From: Candidatus Hemicellulosilyticus sp. P3
GTDB taxonomy: Bacteria; Bacteroidota; Bacteroidia; Bacteroidales; P3
Length of the DNA: 64,000 nucleotides
Direction: 5' to 3'
NCBI GenBank assembly: GCA_001543385.1
Contig: LPNH01000003.1
Span: forward strand, 62,001 to 126,000
Shown here: piece by piece, positions 31,804-40,770 of the stretch
How positions within the stretch are numbered: the first letter of the stretch is position 1
Layout of the letters: each line of letters begins with the position of its first letter
Program-made: the position numbers and the translations under genes
The notes under the pieces: generated by a model
What the model was told of the DNA's origin: nothing
Databases searched by the model: none
What the model saw: only the letters and a program-made list of their open reading frames with translations

Positions 31804-33588
31804 TTAGAACCAGTCTGAGTACCCATGTTCATATCGGTCATGGCTATTGTTTTGTTGTTTTGAACTATATGCTTCTTCCACATTTTTGAACAAATCTTGT
31901 ATGGTTTGCAATTGGATTTCACTGTCATTATCCCTACATATAGCCAGGCCAAGTGCCGTTGAAAGAATAGACATCATCTCAATCACATGTTTCCAGTCCT
32001 CTATCAAAATTCCGTCTCCAACATTGTCACGTAGGTATTTGATGTCACTGAAGCCTGCATATCCGCAACATAATTCCTTTCGTGTTGATCCTCCGCCAGT
32101 GTAAACGATAGGCCTTTTCTGTAACACTCGGCTTATTTCATTTTCCGGCACTCCAATATTTCGTGCATGGCTTTCTATACGATGCACAATTTCATACATA
32201 CTTCGTGAAACGGCTGATTTATGGCTTTCTATACCAAGATCCATAACCGCATTGAGCCCATATGGGACAGAAATATAGTCATAGATTATAACCTCCTCAC
32301 CATTAGGTGCAGAAAACAAACTTATGTCTGTGGTGCCGCCACCGATATCAATAACCATATTCATTCCATCACCGAATTTTCCGTTCAACGCCATCGGATT
32401 GAGGTTCGCGCATGCTTCTGGAAACACATAAATAGAATTATCGCGTTTAGCTTCATTACTATAGGGCATGATATCAGTCAGCCGTACCAATTCGTCCACC
32501 GTACAACGCAAAAAAGCCTCTTTGTCATGGTGGAATACCTCTTCAATCAGATGATACACCGTCAGTATCACTTGCGTCGCCACCTCTTTGTTTTTCTGCC
32601 AAGTCTTTGTACTACTACAAGTCCCCATATTTACCGTAAGGTTTTCAGTGCCATATTTCTCATCGAGTTCAAAGAAGACATAGGTTAGATACCAGACACT
32701 CACCTGCAGAGGCGACCATTCATAGCGCCATTTTAGGCCGGAGGAGAAAAGAGACTGTTTAAAATACCTCATTATTATTGGCTGTAGACGTTTTTTTTCT
32801 TCTTTCCACAACTTGAGTTCCTTCTCGTAATTGGCCATACGCCCGTCCATTGATTCTTGGTTTCGTTTGTTGTGCTCATCCACCTCCTGACACCGTTTTT
32901 CATGGTTTTTTATCAGACTGTCACGTTTAGCCCTGATAGCCTCATATGCGTCAAGTTTGGAGCGGTAGTGAAGAAGTTGTTCCCTGTAATAGCGGTCCGC
33001 CCTGATTTTCGCCTTCTTCAACCTGGAATTATAAACTTTTATCTTTTTCTCATAGCGCTGCTTGGCTTTTAGGTATTCAATAAAGGCTTCCCCGAAGCTT
33101 TTGGGTTGTGTCGGCGTAGCGACCTGCTCCTTTATCAAGGTGCCGAGATCCGACAGGTCGTTGAACGTCTGAGTCGTTGCTTTAGTGGATTGTTGTTCCT
33201 CAATCTGAGGTGGCTCTGGCATAACAGGCTTGTGGAGTCGTGCTGCAATTTCCTCATAGTTAGGCTGCACAGGAGGATCGCCAACTTCAGGCAATTCGGG
33301 CAATATCGGATTCGGAGGATATGACCACAGAGCCAGTGTCGGTTTGACCGGTTCTTCTGTCAATGGGGCTATACGAGCCTGAAGAGCCTCGATCTCATCC
33401 ACGAAACCGTATGCCAGCGTTCGGTCTTTTCTGACCATGACCGTTGAGGGTATAGTGTACTGTTCCTGACCTTTGTCATCAACAAATCGATGAAAAAAGT
33501 ATAGCTTATTGCGGCGGTCGCTACTGTCCTCCAGACACACCTTTGTCTGGTGTGTTCCAAAATCCAGTCCTATCGTGTATGATGCCAT
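31804..33588 (-). CDS. Hsp70/actin-like ATPase with central coiled coil
   Basis: IGLDFGTHQTKVCLED, MVIDIGGGTTDISLFS, YTGGGSTRKELC. Confidence 0.8.
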   Translation of the reverse strand: MASYTIGLDFGTHQTKVCLEDSSDRRNKLYFFHRFVDDKGQEQYTIPSTVMVRKDRTLAYGFVDEIEALQARIAPLTEEPVKPTLALWSYPPNPILPELPEVGDPPVQPNYEEIAARLHKPVMPEPPQIEEQQSTKATTQTFNDLSDLGTLIKEQVATPTQPKSFGEAFIEYLKAKQRYEKKIKVYNSRLKKAKIRADRYYREQLLHYRSKLDAYEAIRAKRDSLIKNHEKRCQEVDEHNKRNQESMDGRMANYEKELKLWKEEKKRLQPIIMRYFKQSLFSSGLKWRYEWSPLQVSVWYLTYVFFELDEKYGTENLTVNMGTCSSTKTWQKNKEVATQVILTVYHLIEEVFHHDKEAFLRCTVDELVRLTDIMPYSNEAKRDNSIYVFPEACANLNPMALNGKFGDGMNMVIDIGGGTTDISLFSAPNGEEVIIYDYISVPYGLNAVMDLGIESHKSAVSRSMYEIVHRIESHARNIGVPENEISRVLQKRPIVYTGGGSTRKELCCGYAGFSDIKYLRDNVGDGILIEDWKHVIEMMSILSTALGLAICRDNDSEIQLQTIQDLFKNVEEAYSSKQQNNSHDRYEHGYSDWF

Positions 33589-36729: not shown

Positions 36730-38229
36730 TTATTCCATCGGTCGTATCATGCTTTCGATAAAGGCAATCTCATCCTTGTCCAAGCCGTATTTCTTGTACA
36801 GCATTTCGTCCGTCCACGGGTGAGAGAAGTCTTGGAGGGGGACGAATTGAAATTTTTCCTTTGAAAGATTAATAGATGATACAGCCATAAGAATCATAAA
36901 CCGTACAAATCTAGTTGTAAGATAGCTATAAAGATTTTCCGCTTCTTCTCTATTATTGAAACCACCAATAATTATATATGAATCGGTGCAAACGAAATTC
37001 TGTGCAATTACTTCTGTTCTCGAAAGCACCTTGAACTTCCCTTCCTTATCAGGTTCACCTGCATGCTCAGCTGTTACTTTACTGATTAGCACTTTGTACT
37101 TGTCAACGAGACTTTTGCCTTGCGATACATCTTTCTTCTCAATAAAAAAAGCTCCTTGACTTGTAATTAAAGTAACATCATCTTTCTTTTTATCATTATG
37201 TCCACGTTCTTTTGACGATATGCCAAAAGGATTACGAGTGGAAATAATGCTTTCTATACTTTTTTGTTGGAAGGACTTTACTTTGTTGACTATGTTTATT
37301 GCTTCATTAAATCTAATAAATACAGGATATTCGTTTAATGATCGTGTAGTTTCATTTCTGTTTTCTCCATTAATATTTATGACTTTACATTTTCCATTCC
37401 AAGAAGCATCCCATAGAAAATAGGAAACGCCTCCTCCAATACTGTTGTTTGGGAAACAATCTTTCGCATTAGCATAATCAACAAGAATCTTGATATGTTT
37501 GTCTGATAGCATTCTGTTACGATAATTATCCAAACCCTTACCGCCTGCGAACCAGCGTGATGGTGTAATCATAACCAAATACTTTGGCTTTAATTCAATC
37601 GATTGCTCTACGAATAGATTATAAATTGGTTTTGCACTTGCTCCGTTTCCTCCATCGCTCATTTGGTACGGCGGGTTGCCTATGATTACATCGAATTGCA
37701 TTTTGAATATTTCTTTGATGGGTTTATGGATAAAGGGATAGGCGTAGGTTTCGCGGCTGTCGGATCGGGCATATTCGCCTTTGCTGGCACCGCAATGTTC
37801 GCAGCGGCCTTGGGCGTTCCAAGTGTGCTTGCATCGTTGATACCACACATTGCCGACATCGTTGTGGAAGGCCTCTGTGACGCTGTACTTGCCGTTGGCA
37901 TGCTTGGAGCAGTAGAGTGTGCGACGGCTCATTTCGGCGGTGAGGTCGGTGCAGGCAATGCCGAAGACCTGTTGGGTCATAATATGGTCGATACGATCCT
38001 GAAGGTTTGGAATCTGCTTTTCGAGGCCAGATAGCAGTCGTTTGGCAATCTCGCGCAAGAAGACGCCGCTCTTGCAGCAAGGGTCAAGGAAGCGCGTCTT
38101 TGGGCTGCGGAACAGTTCCTGCGGCAACAGGTCGAGCATCCGGTTGGCGAGTTCCGGCGATGTAAAGACCTCGTCGCTGCTCAGATTGGCCAAGCAATTG
38201 AGGATGTCGGGACTATAGTTGTTCTTCAT
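36730..38229 (-). CDS. N6-adenine DNA methylase, Eco57I-like
   Basis: FLDPCCKSGVFLREIAKRL, DVIIGNPPYQMSDGG; true start MKNNYSPDILNCLANLSSDEVFTSPELANRMLDLLP. Confidence 0.85.
   Translation of the reverse strand: MKNNYSPDILNCLANLSSDEVFTSPELANRMLDLLPQELFRSPKTRFLDPCCKSGVFLREIAKRLLSGLEKQIPNLQDRIDHIMTQQVFGIACTDLTAEMSRRTLYCSKHANGKYSVTEAFHNDVGNVWYQRCKHTWNAQGRCEHCGASKGEYARSDSRETYAYPFIHKPIKEIFKMQFDVIIGNPPYQMSDGGNGASAKPIYNLFVEQSIELKPKYLVMITPSRWFAGGKGLDNYRNRMLSDKHIKILVDYANAKDCFPNNSIGGGVSYFLWDASWNGKCKVININGENRNETTRSLNEYPVFIRFNEAINIVNKVKSFQQKSIESIISTRNPFGISSKERGHNDKKKDDVTLITSQGAFFIEKKDVSQGKSLVDKYKVLISKVTAEHAGEPDKEGKFKVLSRTEVIAQNFVCTDSYIIIGGFNNREEAENLYSYLTTRFVRFMILMAVSSINLSKEKFQFVPLQDFSHPWTDEMLYKKYGLDKDEIAFIESMIRPME
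36731..36771. repeat. 41-bp direct repeat, copy 2 (intact methylase 3' end)
   Basis: Identical to 31752-31792. Confidence 0.95.
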
Positions 38230-38866
38230 ATTGGTAGAGGTGGGTGTAATGCAAAGGGGGATAGGAACGGATAGGCTCGTCGATGTTCTGCGCCTGTCCT
38301 TGCTCGTCGAAAAGGCTGTACTGGTGTTCTTTCGTAACGAGGAAGTCAAACTGGAAGTCGCGACGCGAGAACTGCTTGCTGCCCGCGATGGGCGTCCATT
38401 CGCAGAAGGTGATGGGCTTGCCCTCGGCGGTGCGATAGGTCAGTGCGTCGCCACAGACGATATTTTTCTGCAACATATATCGGAGGCTTTTTTTATAGCC
38501 TTCCACCGTCTCCCTTTTACCCATTTGCGTAACCACCTCACAGAACAACCTTTTCCGGCAGGCCTCTGCATTGTCGGGCAGGATGTCAATCCCGTAGCAG
38601 GAACCCACAGCAATAAGGCTTTGAAATCCCCACTCTATGGGTGATTTGGTGGATTCAAGCAGCGACATCTTTCGCCGCAGTATCTCAATCAGGAAATTGC
38701 CGTCGCCACAAGCGGGCTCCAGAAAACGGCTGTCGAGCCGGAACGACTCGTCGCGCACCAGGTCGAGCATGGCGTTCACCTCGCGAGGGTTTGTGAACAC
38801 CTCGCCGTGGTCCGCTACCCGTCGTCGGCTTTTGATTTGTGATGTGGTGTTTTCGTGTGCAGGCAT
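38213..38866 (-). CDS. DNA methylase-like protein, first gene of operon
   Basis: VADHGEVFTNPREVNAMLDLV, FLEPACGDGNFLIEILRRK, CYGIDILPDNAEACRKRL; no NPPY in this ORF; overlaps the next gene. Confidence 0.8.
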   Translation of the reverse strand: MPAHENTTSQIKSRRRVADHGEVFTNPREVNAMLDLVRDESFRLDSRFLEPACGDGNFLIEILRRKMSLLESTKSPIEWGFQSLIAVGSCYGIDILPDNAEACRKRLFCEVVTQMGKRETVEGYKKSLRYMLQKNIVCGDALTYRTAEGKPITFCEWTPIAGSKQFSRRDFQFDFLVTKEHQYSLFDEQGQAQNIDEPIRSYPPLHYTHLYQYEEQL

Positions 38867-39001
38867 AAAAAAATCGTGGAACTTTGCCCATGACTCCTTG
38901 GGTGTTCCACGACCCGCACATCAAAAGGTAAAGCCCACGATGTTCTCGTGAGCGTTTACGACTTTACCAGATGTGCTTGATTTGTGGAACTTCAAGGAGT
39001 C
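38867..39001 (-). ncRNA. Nested inverted-repeat leader RNA with alternative terminator directly before the methylase ATG
   Basis: Stems (plus coords): 38892-38900/38993-39001, 38904-38910/38984-38990, 38916-38922/38970-38976, 38927-38933/38962-38968, 38934-38940/38946-38952; terminator 38874-38882/38904-38912 then U7. Confidence 0.75.
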
Positions 39002-39088
39002 GGTAGGAGCGAAAACGCTTTAGATTATTTTGTTATCGTTGTTTCTTTGTCTTGTTTTCTGGTTTTAGTTAGTACCTTTTTATTCATT

Positions 39089-39147
39089 CAATTTCATTAG
39101 ACGTTTTCTCGCCATGCCAAAGTTCAAGCAAGCTTGACTTTGGTCAT
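39089..39147 (-). repeat. Copy C of the dispersed hairpin element
   Basis: Minus: ATGACCAAAGTCAAGCTTGCTTGAACTTTGGCATGGCGAGAAAACGTCTAATGAAATTG. Confidence 0.65.
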
Positions 39148-39237: not shown

Positions 39238-40770
39238 TTATTTCTTCGTAATCGGCTGGATGTGCCGGTGCAGGTAGGCGGGCAGCTGGTCGATGCTGAC
39301 ACGTTCCTGCTGCATGGTGTCGCGGTCGCGCACGGTGACGCTGTTGTCTTGCAGCGTGTCATTGTCGACGGTGATGCAGTAGGGGGTGCCTATGGCGTCC
39401 TGACGGCGGTAGCGGCGTCCGATGGCGTCTTTTTCGTCGTATTGCAGCATGTAGTCGTACTGTAGCATCTGCATGATTTCGCGGGCTTTCTCGGGCAGGC
39501 CGTCTTTTTTGACCAACGGCAGGATGGCGGCTTTGTAGGGAGCCAGAATGGCGGGCAGGCTCAATACGGTGCGCGTGCTGCCGTCCTCGAGCTGTTCGTC
39601 TTTCAGCGCGTGGCTGAAGATGGCCAGGAAGGTGCGGTCAAGACCGATGGAGGTCTCGATAACGTAGGGGGTGTAGCTCTCGTTGAGTTCGCTGTCGAAG
39701 TATTGCAGTTTCTTGCCGCTGAATTCGCTGTGGCGGCTTAGGTCAAAGTCGGTGCGGCTGTGGATGCCTTCCAACTCTTTGAAACCGAAGGGGAACTCGA
39801 ATTCGATATCGGTGGCGGCGTTGGCGTAGTGGGCCAGCTTCTCGTGGTCGTGGTAGCGGTATTTGTCGGCCGGGATGCCCAGCGCCAGATGCCATCTGAG
39901 GCGTTCTTCTTTCCAGTATTTAAACCATTCCAGCTCGCTGCCCGGACGTACAAAGAATTGCATCTCCATCTGTTCGAATTCGCGCATGCGGAAGATGAAC
40001 TGCCGTGCCACGATTTCGTTGCGGAAGGCTTTGCCGATTTGGGCGATGCCGAAGGGTATCTTCATGCGGCCGGACTTCTGCACGTTGAGGAAGTTGACGA
40101 AGATGCCCTGGGCGGTCTCGGGGCGCAGGTAGAGGGTGTCGCTGTCGTCGATGACGCTGCCCATCTTGGTGGCGAACATGAGGTTGAACTGGCGCACGTC
40201 GGTCCAGTTGCGGGTGCCGCTGACGGGGCAGACGATGCCGAGATCGAGAATGAGTTGTTTCAATCCGGCAAGGTCGTTGACGTTCATGCAGGCGGCGTAA
40301 CGGGAACGGATGTCGTCGATCTCTTTTTGGTGTTCCAGCACGCGGGCGTTTGTGGAGACAAACTGTTGGCGGTCGAAGGCGTCGCCGAAGCGTTTCTGCG
40401 CCTTGTCGCATTCTTTTTTGATTTTATCTTCTATCTTTGCGATATGGTCTTCGATGAGCACATCGGCACGGTAGCGTTTCTTGCTGTCACGGTTGTCGAT
40501 AAGGGGGTCGTTGAAGGCGTCGACATGGCCAGAGGCTTTCCAGATTTTGGGGTGCATGAATATGGCGGAGTCAATGCCGACAATGTTTTCGTGGTATTGC
40601 ACCATCGAGCGCCACCAGTATTGTTTGATGTTGTTTTTGAGCTCGGTGCCCAATTGTCCGTAGTCGTAGACGGCGCCCAGTCCGTCGTATATTTCGCTGG
40701 ATGGGAATATAAAGCCGTATTCTTTGGCGTGCGACACCACTTTTTTGAAAATATCTTCTTGATTAGCCAT
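39238..40770 (-). CDS. glyS: Glycine--tRNA ligase
   Basis: KEYGFIFPSSEIYDGLGAVYDYGQLGTELKNNIKQYWW, PETAQGIFVNF, QIGKAFRNEI. Confidence 0.95.
   Translation of the reverse strand: MANQEDIFKKVVSHAKEYGFIFPSSEIYDGLGAVYDYGQLGTELKNNIKQYWWRSMVQYHENIVGIDSAIFMHPKIWKASGHVDAFNDPLIDNRDSKKRYRADVLIEDHIAKIEDKIKKECDKAQKRFGDAFDRQQFVSTNARVLEHQKEIDDIRSRYAACMNVNDLAGLKQLILDLGIVCPVSGTRNWTDVRQFNLMFATKMGSVIDDSDTLYLRPETAQGIFVNFLNVQKSGRMKIPFGIAQIGKAFRNEIVARQFIFRMREFEQMEMQFFVRPGSELEWFKYWKEERLRWHLALGIPADKYRYHDHEKLAHYANAATDIEFEFPFGFKELEGIHSRTDFDLSRHSEFSGKKLQYFDSELNESYTPYVIETSIGLDRTFLAIFSHALKDEQLEDGSTRTVLSLPAILAPYKAAILPLVKKDGLPEKAREIMQMLQYDYMLQYDEKDAIGRRYRRQDAIGTPYCITVDNDTLQDNSVTVRDRDTMQQERVSIDQLPAYLHRHIQPITKK

Follow-up and report, generated by a model that had tools for sequence, protein, structure and literature searches.

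A 161-nt segment upstream of a methyltransferase operon in Candidatus Hemicellulosilyticus sp. P3 is probably one copy of a Bacteroidota-wide family of ~160-nt cis-acting leader RNAs that act as bistable transcription attenuators; on the sequence comparisons below, we put the probability of this reading at roughly two in three. The element runs on the minus strand from 39022 down to 38862 of the window, the whole 64,000-nucleotide stretch of contig LPNH01000003.1 that was analysed, and lies between proS (39238-40770) and MT217, the first gene of the operon (Table 1). Members of the family share a structure with mutually exclusive, covarying pairings, a leader position and a U-tract. In the proposed read-through conformer (A), P1, the Ha:Hb loop-loop pairing, P3 and the tip hairpin S2:S3 would form one long rod that leaves S4 unpaired, and RNA polymerase would proceed into the gene. 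In the stop conformer (T), S0 would pair with S2 (GCGUUU:AAACGC) and free S3 for S4 (UCGUGGGCUUU:AAAGUUCCACGA), which together with the U-tract would constitute an intrinsic terminator. We infer that the choice of fold is regulated by a cellular signal, which could be a small molecule, an RNA-binding or NusG-like protein or the speed of transcription. Restriction/defence operons and surface-protein genes would then be turned up or down together.

Table 1 Features of the leader element and of the downstream operon, in window coordinates
Feature	Position	Strand	Evidence
Whole leader RNA core	38862-39022	-	Covariance model match: R1 172.2 bits, E 2.8e-33 (the R1 model includes the window sequence itself); R2 155.5 bits
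S0/P0, 5' hairpin AGCG-UUUU-CGCU; its GCGUUU is switch strand 1, alternative partner AAACGC of S2	39008-39019	-	P0 94.7% paired
P1 5' arm GACUCCUUG	38993-39001	-	Pairs with 38892-38900; both sides change at every counted pair; swap test z -38
P1 3' arm CAAGGAGUC	38892-38900	-	Same P1 covariation and swap test
Hairpin Ha CUUG-AAGUUCCACAAAU-CAAG; loop GUUCCAC (38984-38990) pairs with the Hb loop (P2)	38976-38996	-	Swap test, P2 covariation
Hairpin Hb GGGU-CGUGGAAC-ACCC; loop GUGGAAC (38904-38910), the central segment of the original prediction	38900-38915	-	Loop pairs with Ha
P3 5' arm GCACAUC, variable stem	38970-38976	-	P3 96% paired, 7/7 pairs double-changed; swap test z -39.7
P3 3' arm GAUGUGC; with the next GGG, complementary to the ORF start CCUGCAC	38916-38922	-	Own versus swapped duplex, 27 leaders
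S2, tip 5' strand GUAAACGCUCACGA, strand 2	38946-38959	-	P5 with S3 97.4% paired
S3, tip 3' strand UCGUGGGCUUUAC, strand 3; partner S2 (rod) or S4 (predicted terminator)	38928-38940	-	Base triple S2/S3/S4 and S3:S4 helix
S4, predicted terminator 3' strand AAAGUUCCACGA, strand 4	38874-38885	-	S3:S4 covariation
U7 tract	38867-38873	-	U-tract count across copies
MT217 start codon and codons 2-6, complementary to P3 3' arm	38849-38866	-	Own versus swapped duplex test
MT217, methyltransferase-like first gene; SAM motif I FLEPACGDGNF, without NPPY	38213-38866	-	
MT539, Eco57I-type adenine methyltransferase; own motif I and NPPY	36730-38349	-	Pfam Eco57I 1.9e-36
SNF2/DrmD-like helicase, 1041 aa	33591-36716	-	PADLOC DrmD 3e-108; NCBIfam 329 bits, below the 610 cut-off
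594-aa operon protein, no confident family	31804-33588	-	
861-aa ResIII helicase; resembles the N-terminal part of the PADLOC IIG restriction enzyme PDLC03626	28800-31385	-	

The original prediction described five nested pairings on the minus strand, and all of them are present and nested in that way within 38862-39022. The innermost pair, CTCACGA/TCGTGGG, contains one G-U wobble. RNAfold assigns positions 38850-39020 a free energy of -62.4 kcal/mol, compared with -41.4 +/- 4.2 kcal/mol for 200 dinucleotide shuffles (z -5.0, 0/200). The stem of Hb reads AGGU..ACCU in most homologues; the local Ha and Hb stems are a by-eye reading of the sequences rather than a count. Another near-perfect hairpin, CCAAAGTCAAG/CTTGAACTTTGG, lies downstream of proS at 39115-39145 (minus strand) and is possibly the proS terminator or a processing site.

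The rod is composed of P0, P1, P2, P3, P4 and P5 and covaries at nearly every pair in homologous leaders. Across 96 distinct copies, 96.2% of cells are paired in a covariance model (CM) alignment, which is fitted to the structure and hence leans towards it; it was used because MAFFT by itself placed the variable stems of divergent copies incorrectly. Double-sided changes occur at 33 of the 39 pairs and in 1077 cells, against 322 in shuffled alignments. The covariation score is 0.763 versus 0.212 for shuffled alignments, and sliding one strand abolishes the signal (0.086 at most). Similar values come from a class-level set of 48 matches, of which 47 had no part in training the model: 94.7% paired, 35/39 pairs changed on both sides and a score of 0.747 versus 0.194. 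P2 is paired in 99-100% of cells, with all seven pairs double-changed in both sets. One way to draw it is as a kissing-type loop-loop pairing of the local hairpins Ha and Hb, whose loops co-vary (GUUCCAC/GUGGAAC, CUCGAC/GUCGAG, CUGGAA/UUCCAG and others).

A swap test, which depends little on the alignment, sets the duplex energy of two segments from one copy against that of segments exchanged between copies. The first set comprised 139 copies, reduced to 103 representatives at 85% identity, and yielded z values, inflated by the relatedness of the copies, of -38 for P1, about -40 for P3, about -26 (-25.8) for Ha:Hb and -13 for S2:S3. For 44 new class-level copies, Ha:Hb scored about -15 (-15.3) and S2:S3 -6.5. 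The G-U wobbles of the tip speak for the sense strand as the RNA. The sequence of the tip is conserved beyond what pairing needs, and the stems are variable but covarying.

The two strands of the tip and the two ends of the leader make up, as judged from covariation, a 1:2+3:4 versus 2:3 switch. In the conserved predicted terminator, the 3' strand S4 pairs with the hairpin tip (UCGUGGGC, strand 38930-38940). This main helix S3:S4 is paired in 94.1% of cells and in 98.7% of those of the class-level set. The S0:S2 helix is paired in 94.9%, with GC-to-AU double changes, and in 83% at class level, with 13 double-changed cells at one pair. Taken together, the two helices are paired in 92.3% and 87.5% of cells (first and class-level set), their double-changed cells exceed those of shuffles, and slid controls reach 51% at most. 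The swap test returns z -11.5 for S3:S4 and -8.6 for S0:S2 in the 103 copies, and -8.1 and -5.2 in the 44 class-level copies. One strand thus has two mutually exclusive pairings, both of which covary.

Individual copies illustrate this. A base triple of S2, S3 and S4 reads A-U-A, C-G-C or G-C-G depending on the lineage, the S3 base beside CGUG being U, G or C. Two copies have the tip CGCGGG and an S4 with CCGCG. GCGUUU of S0 is complementary to AAACGC of S2, and other lineages have GCAUU/AAUGC in place of GCGUU/AACGC. When S3:S4 is forced in the window sequence, S0:S2 forms spontaneously. The rod is more stable than the nested S3:S4 fold by ~14 kcal/mol (median of 92), so the terminator would need to form during transcription or with kinetic, ligand or bound-factor help.

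The original prediction had chosen another partner for the end of the leader. GTGGAAC (38904-38910) is indeed complementary to GTTCCAC(GA) at 38874-38882 (GTTCCACGA), which is followed by the U7 tract (38867-38873) and the ATG (38864-38866). A terminator formed by GUGGAAC and GUUCCACGA would be in line with this 9-bp complementarity in the window lineage and with the stability of the segment from about 38916 onward, which folds alone at -20.1 kcal/mol. Across copies, however, this pairing is found in about 67% (66.9%) of cells, with essentially no covariation or pair-type excess over shuffles. Its swap z is -2.6 in the 103 copies and 0.0 (259/500) in the class-level copies outside Bacteroidales. 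Relatedness should inflate all pairings alike, and the contrast with S3:S4 is therefore informative. The comparison indicates that the GTGGAAC pairing is lineage-specific and that the conserved partner of S4 is the hairpin tip S3, which makes this exact model very unlikely.

S4 is directly followed by a U-tract (at least 6 of 8 U) in 128/139 copies, compared with 8/139 random positions. S3:S4 therefore has the form of an intrinsic terminator and is predicted to terminate transcription in vivo. Some Prevotella and Flavobacteriia copies keep S4 but have a poor U-tract. Most copies (125/136) are co-directional with the next gene, at a median distance of 50 nt upstream of it, and a -33/-7 Bacteroidota promoter lies up to ~160 nt upstream in 46/136 copies versus 16/685 random windows. 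Across copies, the element is thus positioned in sense between a promoter and the first gene; no clear promoter or -7 element was found upstream of the window copy. In five copies from other orders of the class (L236, L238, L243, L248, L251), a small, divergently oriented HTH-like gene adjoins the element upstream.

Dispersed imperfect palindromes are also typical of REP/BIME elements, MITEs and integron attC sites. A mobile repeat of the REP/MITE type, or an attC-like folded-DNA recombination site, that lies near genes by chance could explain why some genera carry many copies per genome, why the element is a large imperfect palindrome and why copies are found at contig ends in some assemblies. 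In contrast to such repeats, the family is sense-oriented (125:11), promoter-linked and followed by a U-tract, and it covaries as RNA: paralogous copies differ at nearly every stem through compensatory changes, and the G-U pairs are strand-specific. REP/MITE elements would be near-identical copies without orientation bias, whereas the 139 copies retain 103 representatives at 85% identity. We consider a mobile repeat or an attC-like site extremely improbable. A retron ncRNA was also rejected, with no reverse transcriptase among the first genes scanned.

In 27 window-type leaders, no more than 3 nt separate the U-tract from the ATG. The 3' arm of P3 is complementary to the first codons, and the duplex computed with those of its own gene has -13.9 kcal/mol versus -9.4 kcal/mol for swapped pairs (0/1000 permutations). 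The arm and the first codons vary together, which suggests a possible translational layer in the window lineage: where an ORF begins right after the U-tract, as in the window, the P3 3' arm may cover codons 2-5 and block translation. The same complementarity in 27 leaders could also point to trans-acting sRNA genes with their own promoter and terminator, the terminated ~160-nt RNA being the product that pairs with other mRNAs or with the start of its own, and read-through being incidental. A leader fits better with the sense position ~50 nt before genes (125/136) and with the retention of the element beside the same operon while the flanks change, and we regard sRNA genes as improbable.

S4 and the 3' half of the element have further complementarity downstream of the U-tract, with an S4 swap z of -7.6 in the class-level set. 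Simple termination does not explain this complementarity, which a pure terminator would not need. In copies of genus g7 (L129, L131, L137, L139, L142) and in L235, L239 and L253, S4 contains AAGUCCC or AGUUCC, complementary to a GGGACUU or GGAACU that sits ~30-60 nt past the U-tract and near the start codon. Flavobacteriia-like copies likewise have an S4 complementary to a segment past the U-tract. In the Prevotella-type methyltransferase leaders L045, L050, L066 and L070, the U-tract is followed by a second occurrence of the P1 5' arm sequence (e.g. CAAGUACCCGAGG), which is therefore complementary to the P1 3' arm.

The proposed bistable attenuator resembles trp/his-type attenuators in its four strands with mutually exclusive pairings (1:2+3:4 versus 2:3), the last of which is followed by a U-tract. 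It differs from them in the additional structured domain (P1, Ha:Hb, P3) between the strands and in not being tied to one pathway. No consistent leader peptide or short leader ORF was seen in the few upstream regions inspected by eye.

Two special cases of the bistable attenuator would specify what chooses the fold. In the first, P1, Ha:Hb, P3 and the conserved bulge-and-tip GUAAAGCG-GUAAACGCUCACG...CGUGGGCUUUAC would form a small-molecule aptamer, with S3:S4 as expression platform. As in terminator-type riboswitches (purine, SAM, TPP), the family has a 5'-leader position, a loop-loop-paired domain, a conserved core and an integrated terminator, and it forms a multi-copy regulon. The architecture is complex, conserved and of tertiary type, the loop-loop pairing covaries fully, and the tip is strongly conserved beyond pairing needs, making the structured core a candidate aptamer. 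The tip conservation is, however, partly due to the need of S3 to match both S2 and S4. The family also departs from known riboswitches in having no Rfam 15 match and in a regulon of defence and surface genes, and the downstream genes (restriction systems, LRR proteins, peptidases, TonB receptors, FecI-like sigma) suggest no single metabolite. A ligand-binding riboswitch is a tentative proposal.

In the second special case, a phylum-wide RNA-binding protein or NusG paralogue would recognise the tip and choose the fold, in a manner similar to LoaP, PUT and ribosomal-protein leaders. A conserved tip with variable, covarying stems is typical of protein-recognised leaders, and the family has both. 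The element is located just past the promoters of long genes and operons, comparable to the conserved hairpin early in long transcripts of protein-directed leaders, from which the covarying bistable switch sets it apart. We view protein-dependent attenuation or antitermination as possible, though somewhat unlikely.

Covariance models place the window hairpin, by sequence and structure, in a large, previously uncatalogued leader RNA family across Bacteroidota. A blastn search with the 171-nt segment alone found relatives in 58/190 genomes of the same taxonomic family, some preceding the same gene and others unrelated genes. Model R1, built from 14 copies, matches 140/190 genomes of that family and 65/295 genomes of the order (48 genera). 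Model R2, built from 100 copies, matches 61/246 sampled genomes of class Bacteroidia and 32/297 genomes of a phylum sample, and none of seven non-Bacteroidota control genomes (~26 Mb). Only the top-ranking candidates of each genome were scored, and these counts are therefore lower bounds. Several copies per genome, each an RNA of ~160 nt, are common; the window's own genome has eight matches at E<=1, five of them below 1e-4.

Rfam 15 contains no family that matches at gathering score and nothing meaningful at E<=10 for the window element; the flanks gave only tRNAs. The literature on Bacteroides transcriptomes and RNA discovery, mainly its freely readable main texts, yielded no description. 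Fremin and Bhatt (2021, PMC8040213) predicted 3161 structures in human microbiomes, some of which are palindromic, terminator-like and Bacteroidetes-specific. Compared by description, the parts of that survey consulted describe no phylum-wide leader family of such kind, and it may contain the window RNA as an unnamed candidate. The window element has no near DNA match on plasmids; copies on two named plasmids lie there without annotation. No hit came from two consensus-pattern scans of viral contigs, which thus give no evidence of common phage carriage, and one unverified phage contig carries a copy.

A contig in a bin labelled Clostridia (L041, JAFWXY010000056.1) carries a Bacteroidales-type element and operon. 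It is probably mis-binned, because its element, at 149-150 bits, scores as close relatives of the window copy do. At loci L104 and L110, the element precedes what is left of the MT217 start, beyond which the sequence is unrelated, and L127 has a truncated element; these are possible cases of decay.

The window operon encodes a putative restriction system. MT539 matches the C-terminal part of PDLC03626; its listed TTG start is probably too far upstream, and the methionine at residue 41 fits better. The 1041-aa DrmD-like helicase is part of this Eco57I-type methyltransferase operon, not of a recognised DISARM locus. The element is kept before the same methyltransferase operon in 53/80 related loci, distant Prevotella-type ones included, and was not found at related methyltransferase loci of other phyla.

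Restriction and defence genes downstream of the family comprise the Eco57I-type system of the window, type I R and M-S subunits, type IIG and type IV-like enzymes, DrmD/HKD-Snf2 helicases and an EVE-HNH protein. Other copies precede genes for BspA-type LRR proteins, C10 and S8 peptidases, Kelch, WD40 and fibronectin proteins, DUF6175, RmuC, TerB and an AMP-ligase. In other orders, translated ORFs, read without a family search, include TonB-dependent-receptor-like proteins and a FecI-like sigma-factor-like gene. Signal-peptide-like proteins follow 50/91 other leaders versus a background of 32%, as estimated with a crude proxy. A defence-only regulon was rejected, as about half of the other leaders precede such proteins. 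The specificity for a defence operon implied by the original prediction is not supported: with many copies before secreted, surface and TonB-receptor genes, the link to defence is real but not exclusive. What remains of that attenuator or riboswitch interpretation is the leader RNA itself, with its two mutually exclusive, covarying folds, one of which ends in a U-tract; the partner segment and the restriction to defence are not retained. The refuting condition named with that interpretation, a lack of covariation or conservation among homologous leaders, did not apply, since both are present.

The window RNA and its relatives represent, as far as sequence can tell, a new RNA family with textbook attenuator logic, no Rfam entry and an unusual combination of target genes. 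The family probably governs the choice between continued and halted transcription of restriction and cell-surface genes. We speculate, with less confidence, that it is a hitherto unknown, phylum-wide class of bistable regulatory RNAs, perhaps a novel type of riboswitch, through which restriction/anti-phage systems are coordinated with surface receptors and secreted proteins. A single signal would then determine both what phages can attach to and the systems that destroy them. Little is known of cis-regulatory RNAs in Bacteroidota. If the attenuator reading is right, one uncatalogued RNA family would control many genes in a dominant gut, rumen and environmental phylum. It would offer a concrete handle on the switching of defence operons and surface proteins, provide a usable genetic part for Bacteroidota and annotate leaders that current pipelines leave blank.
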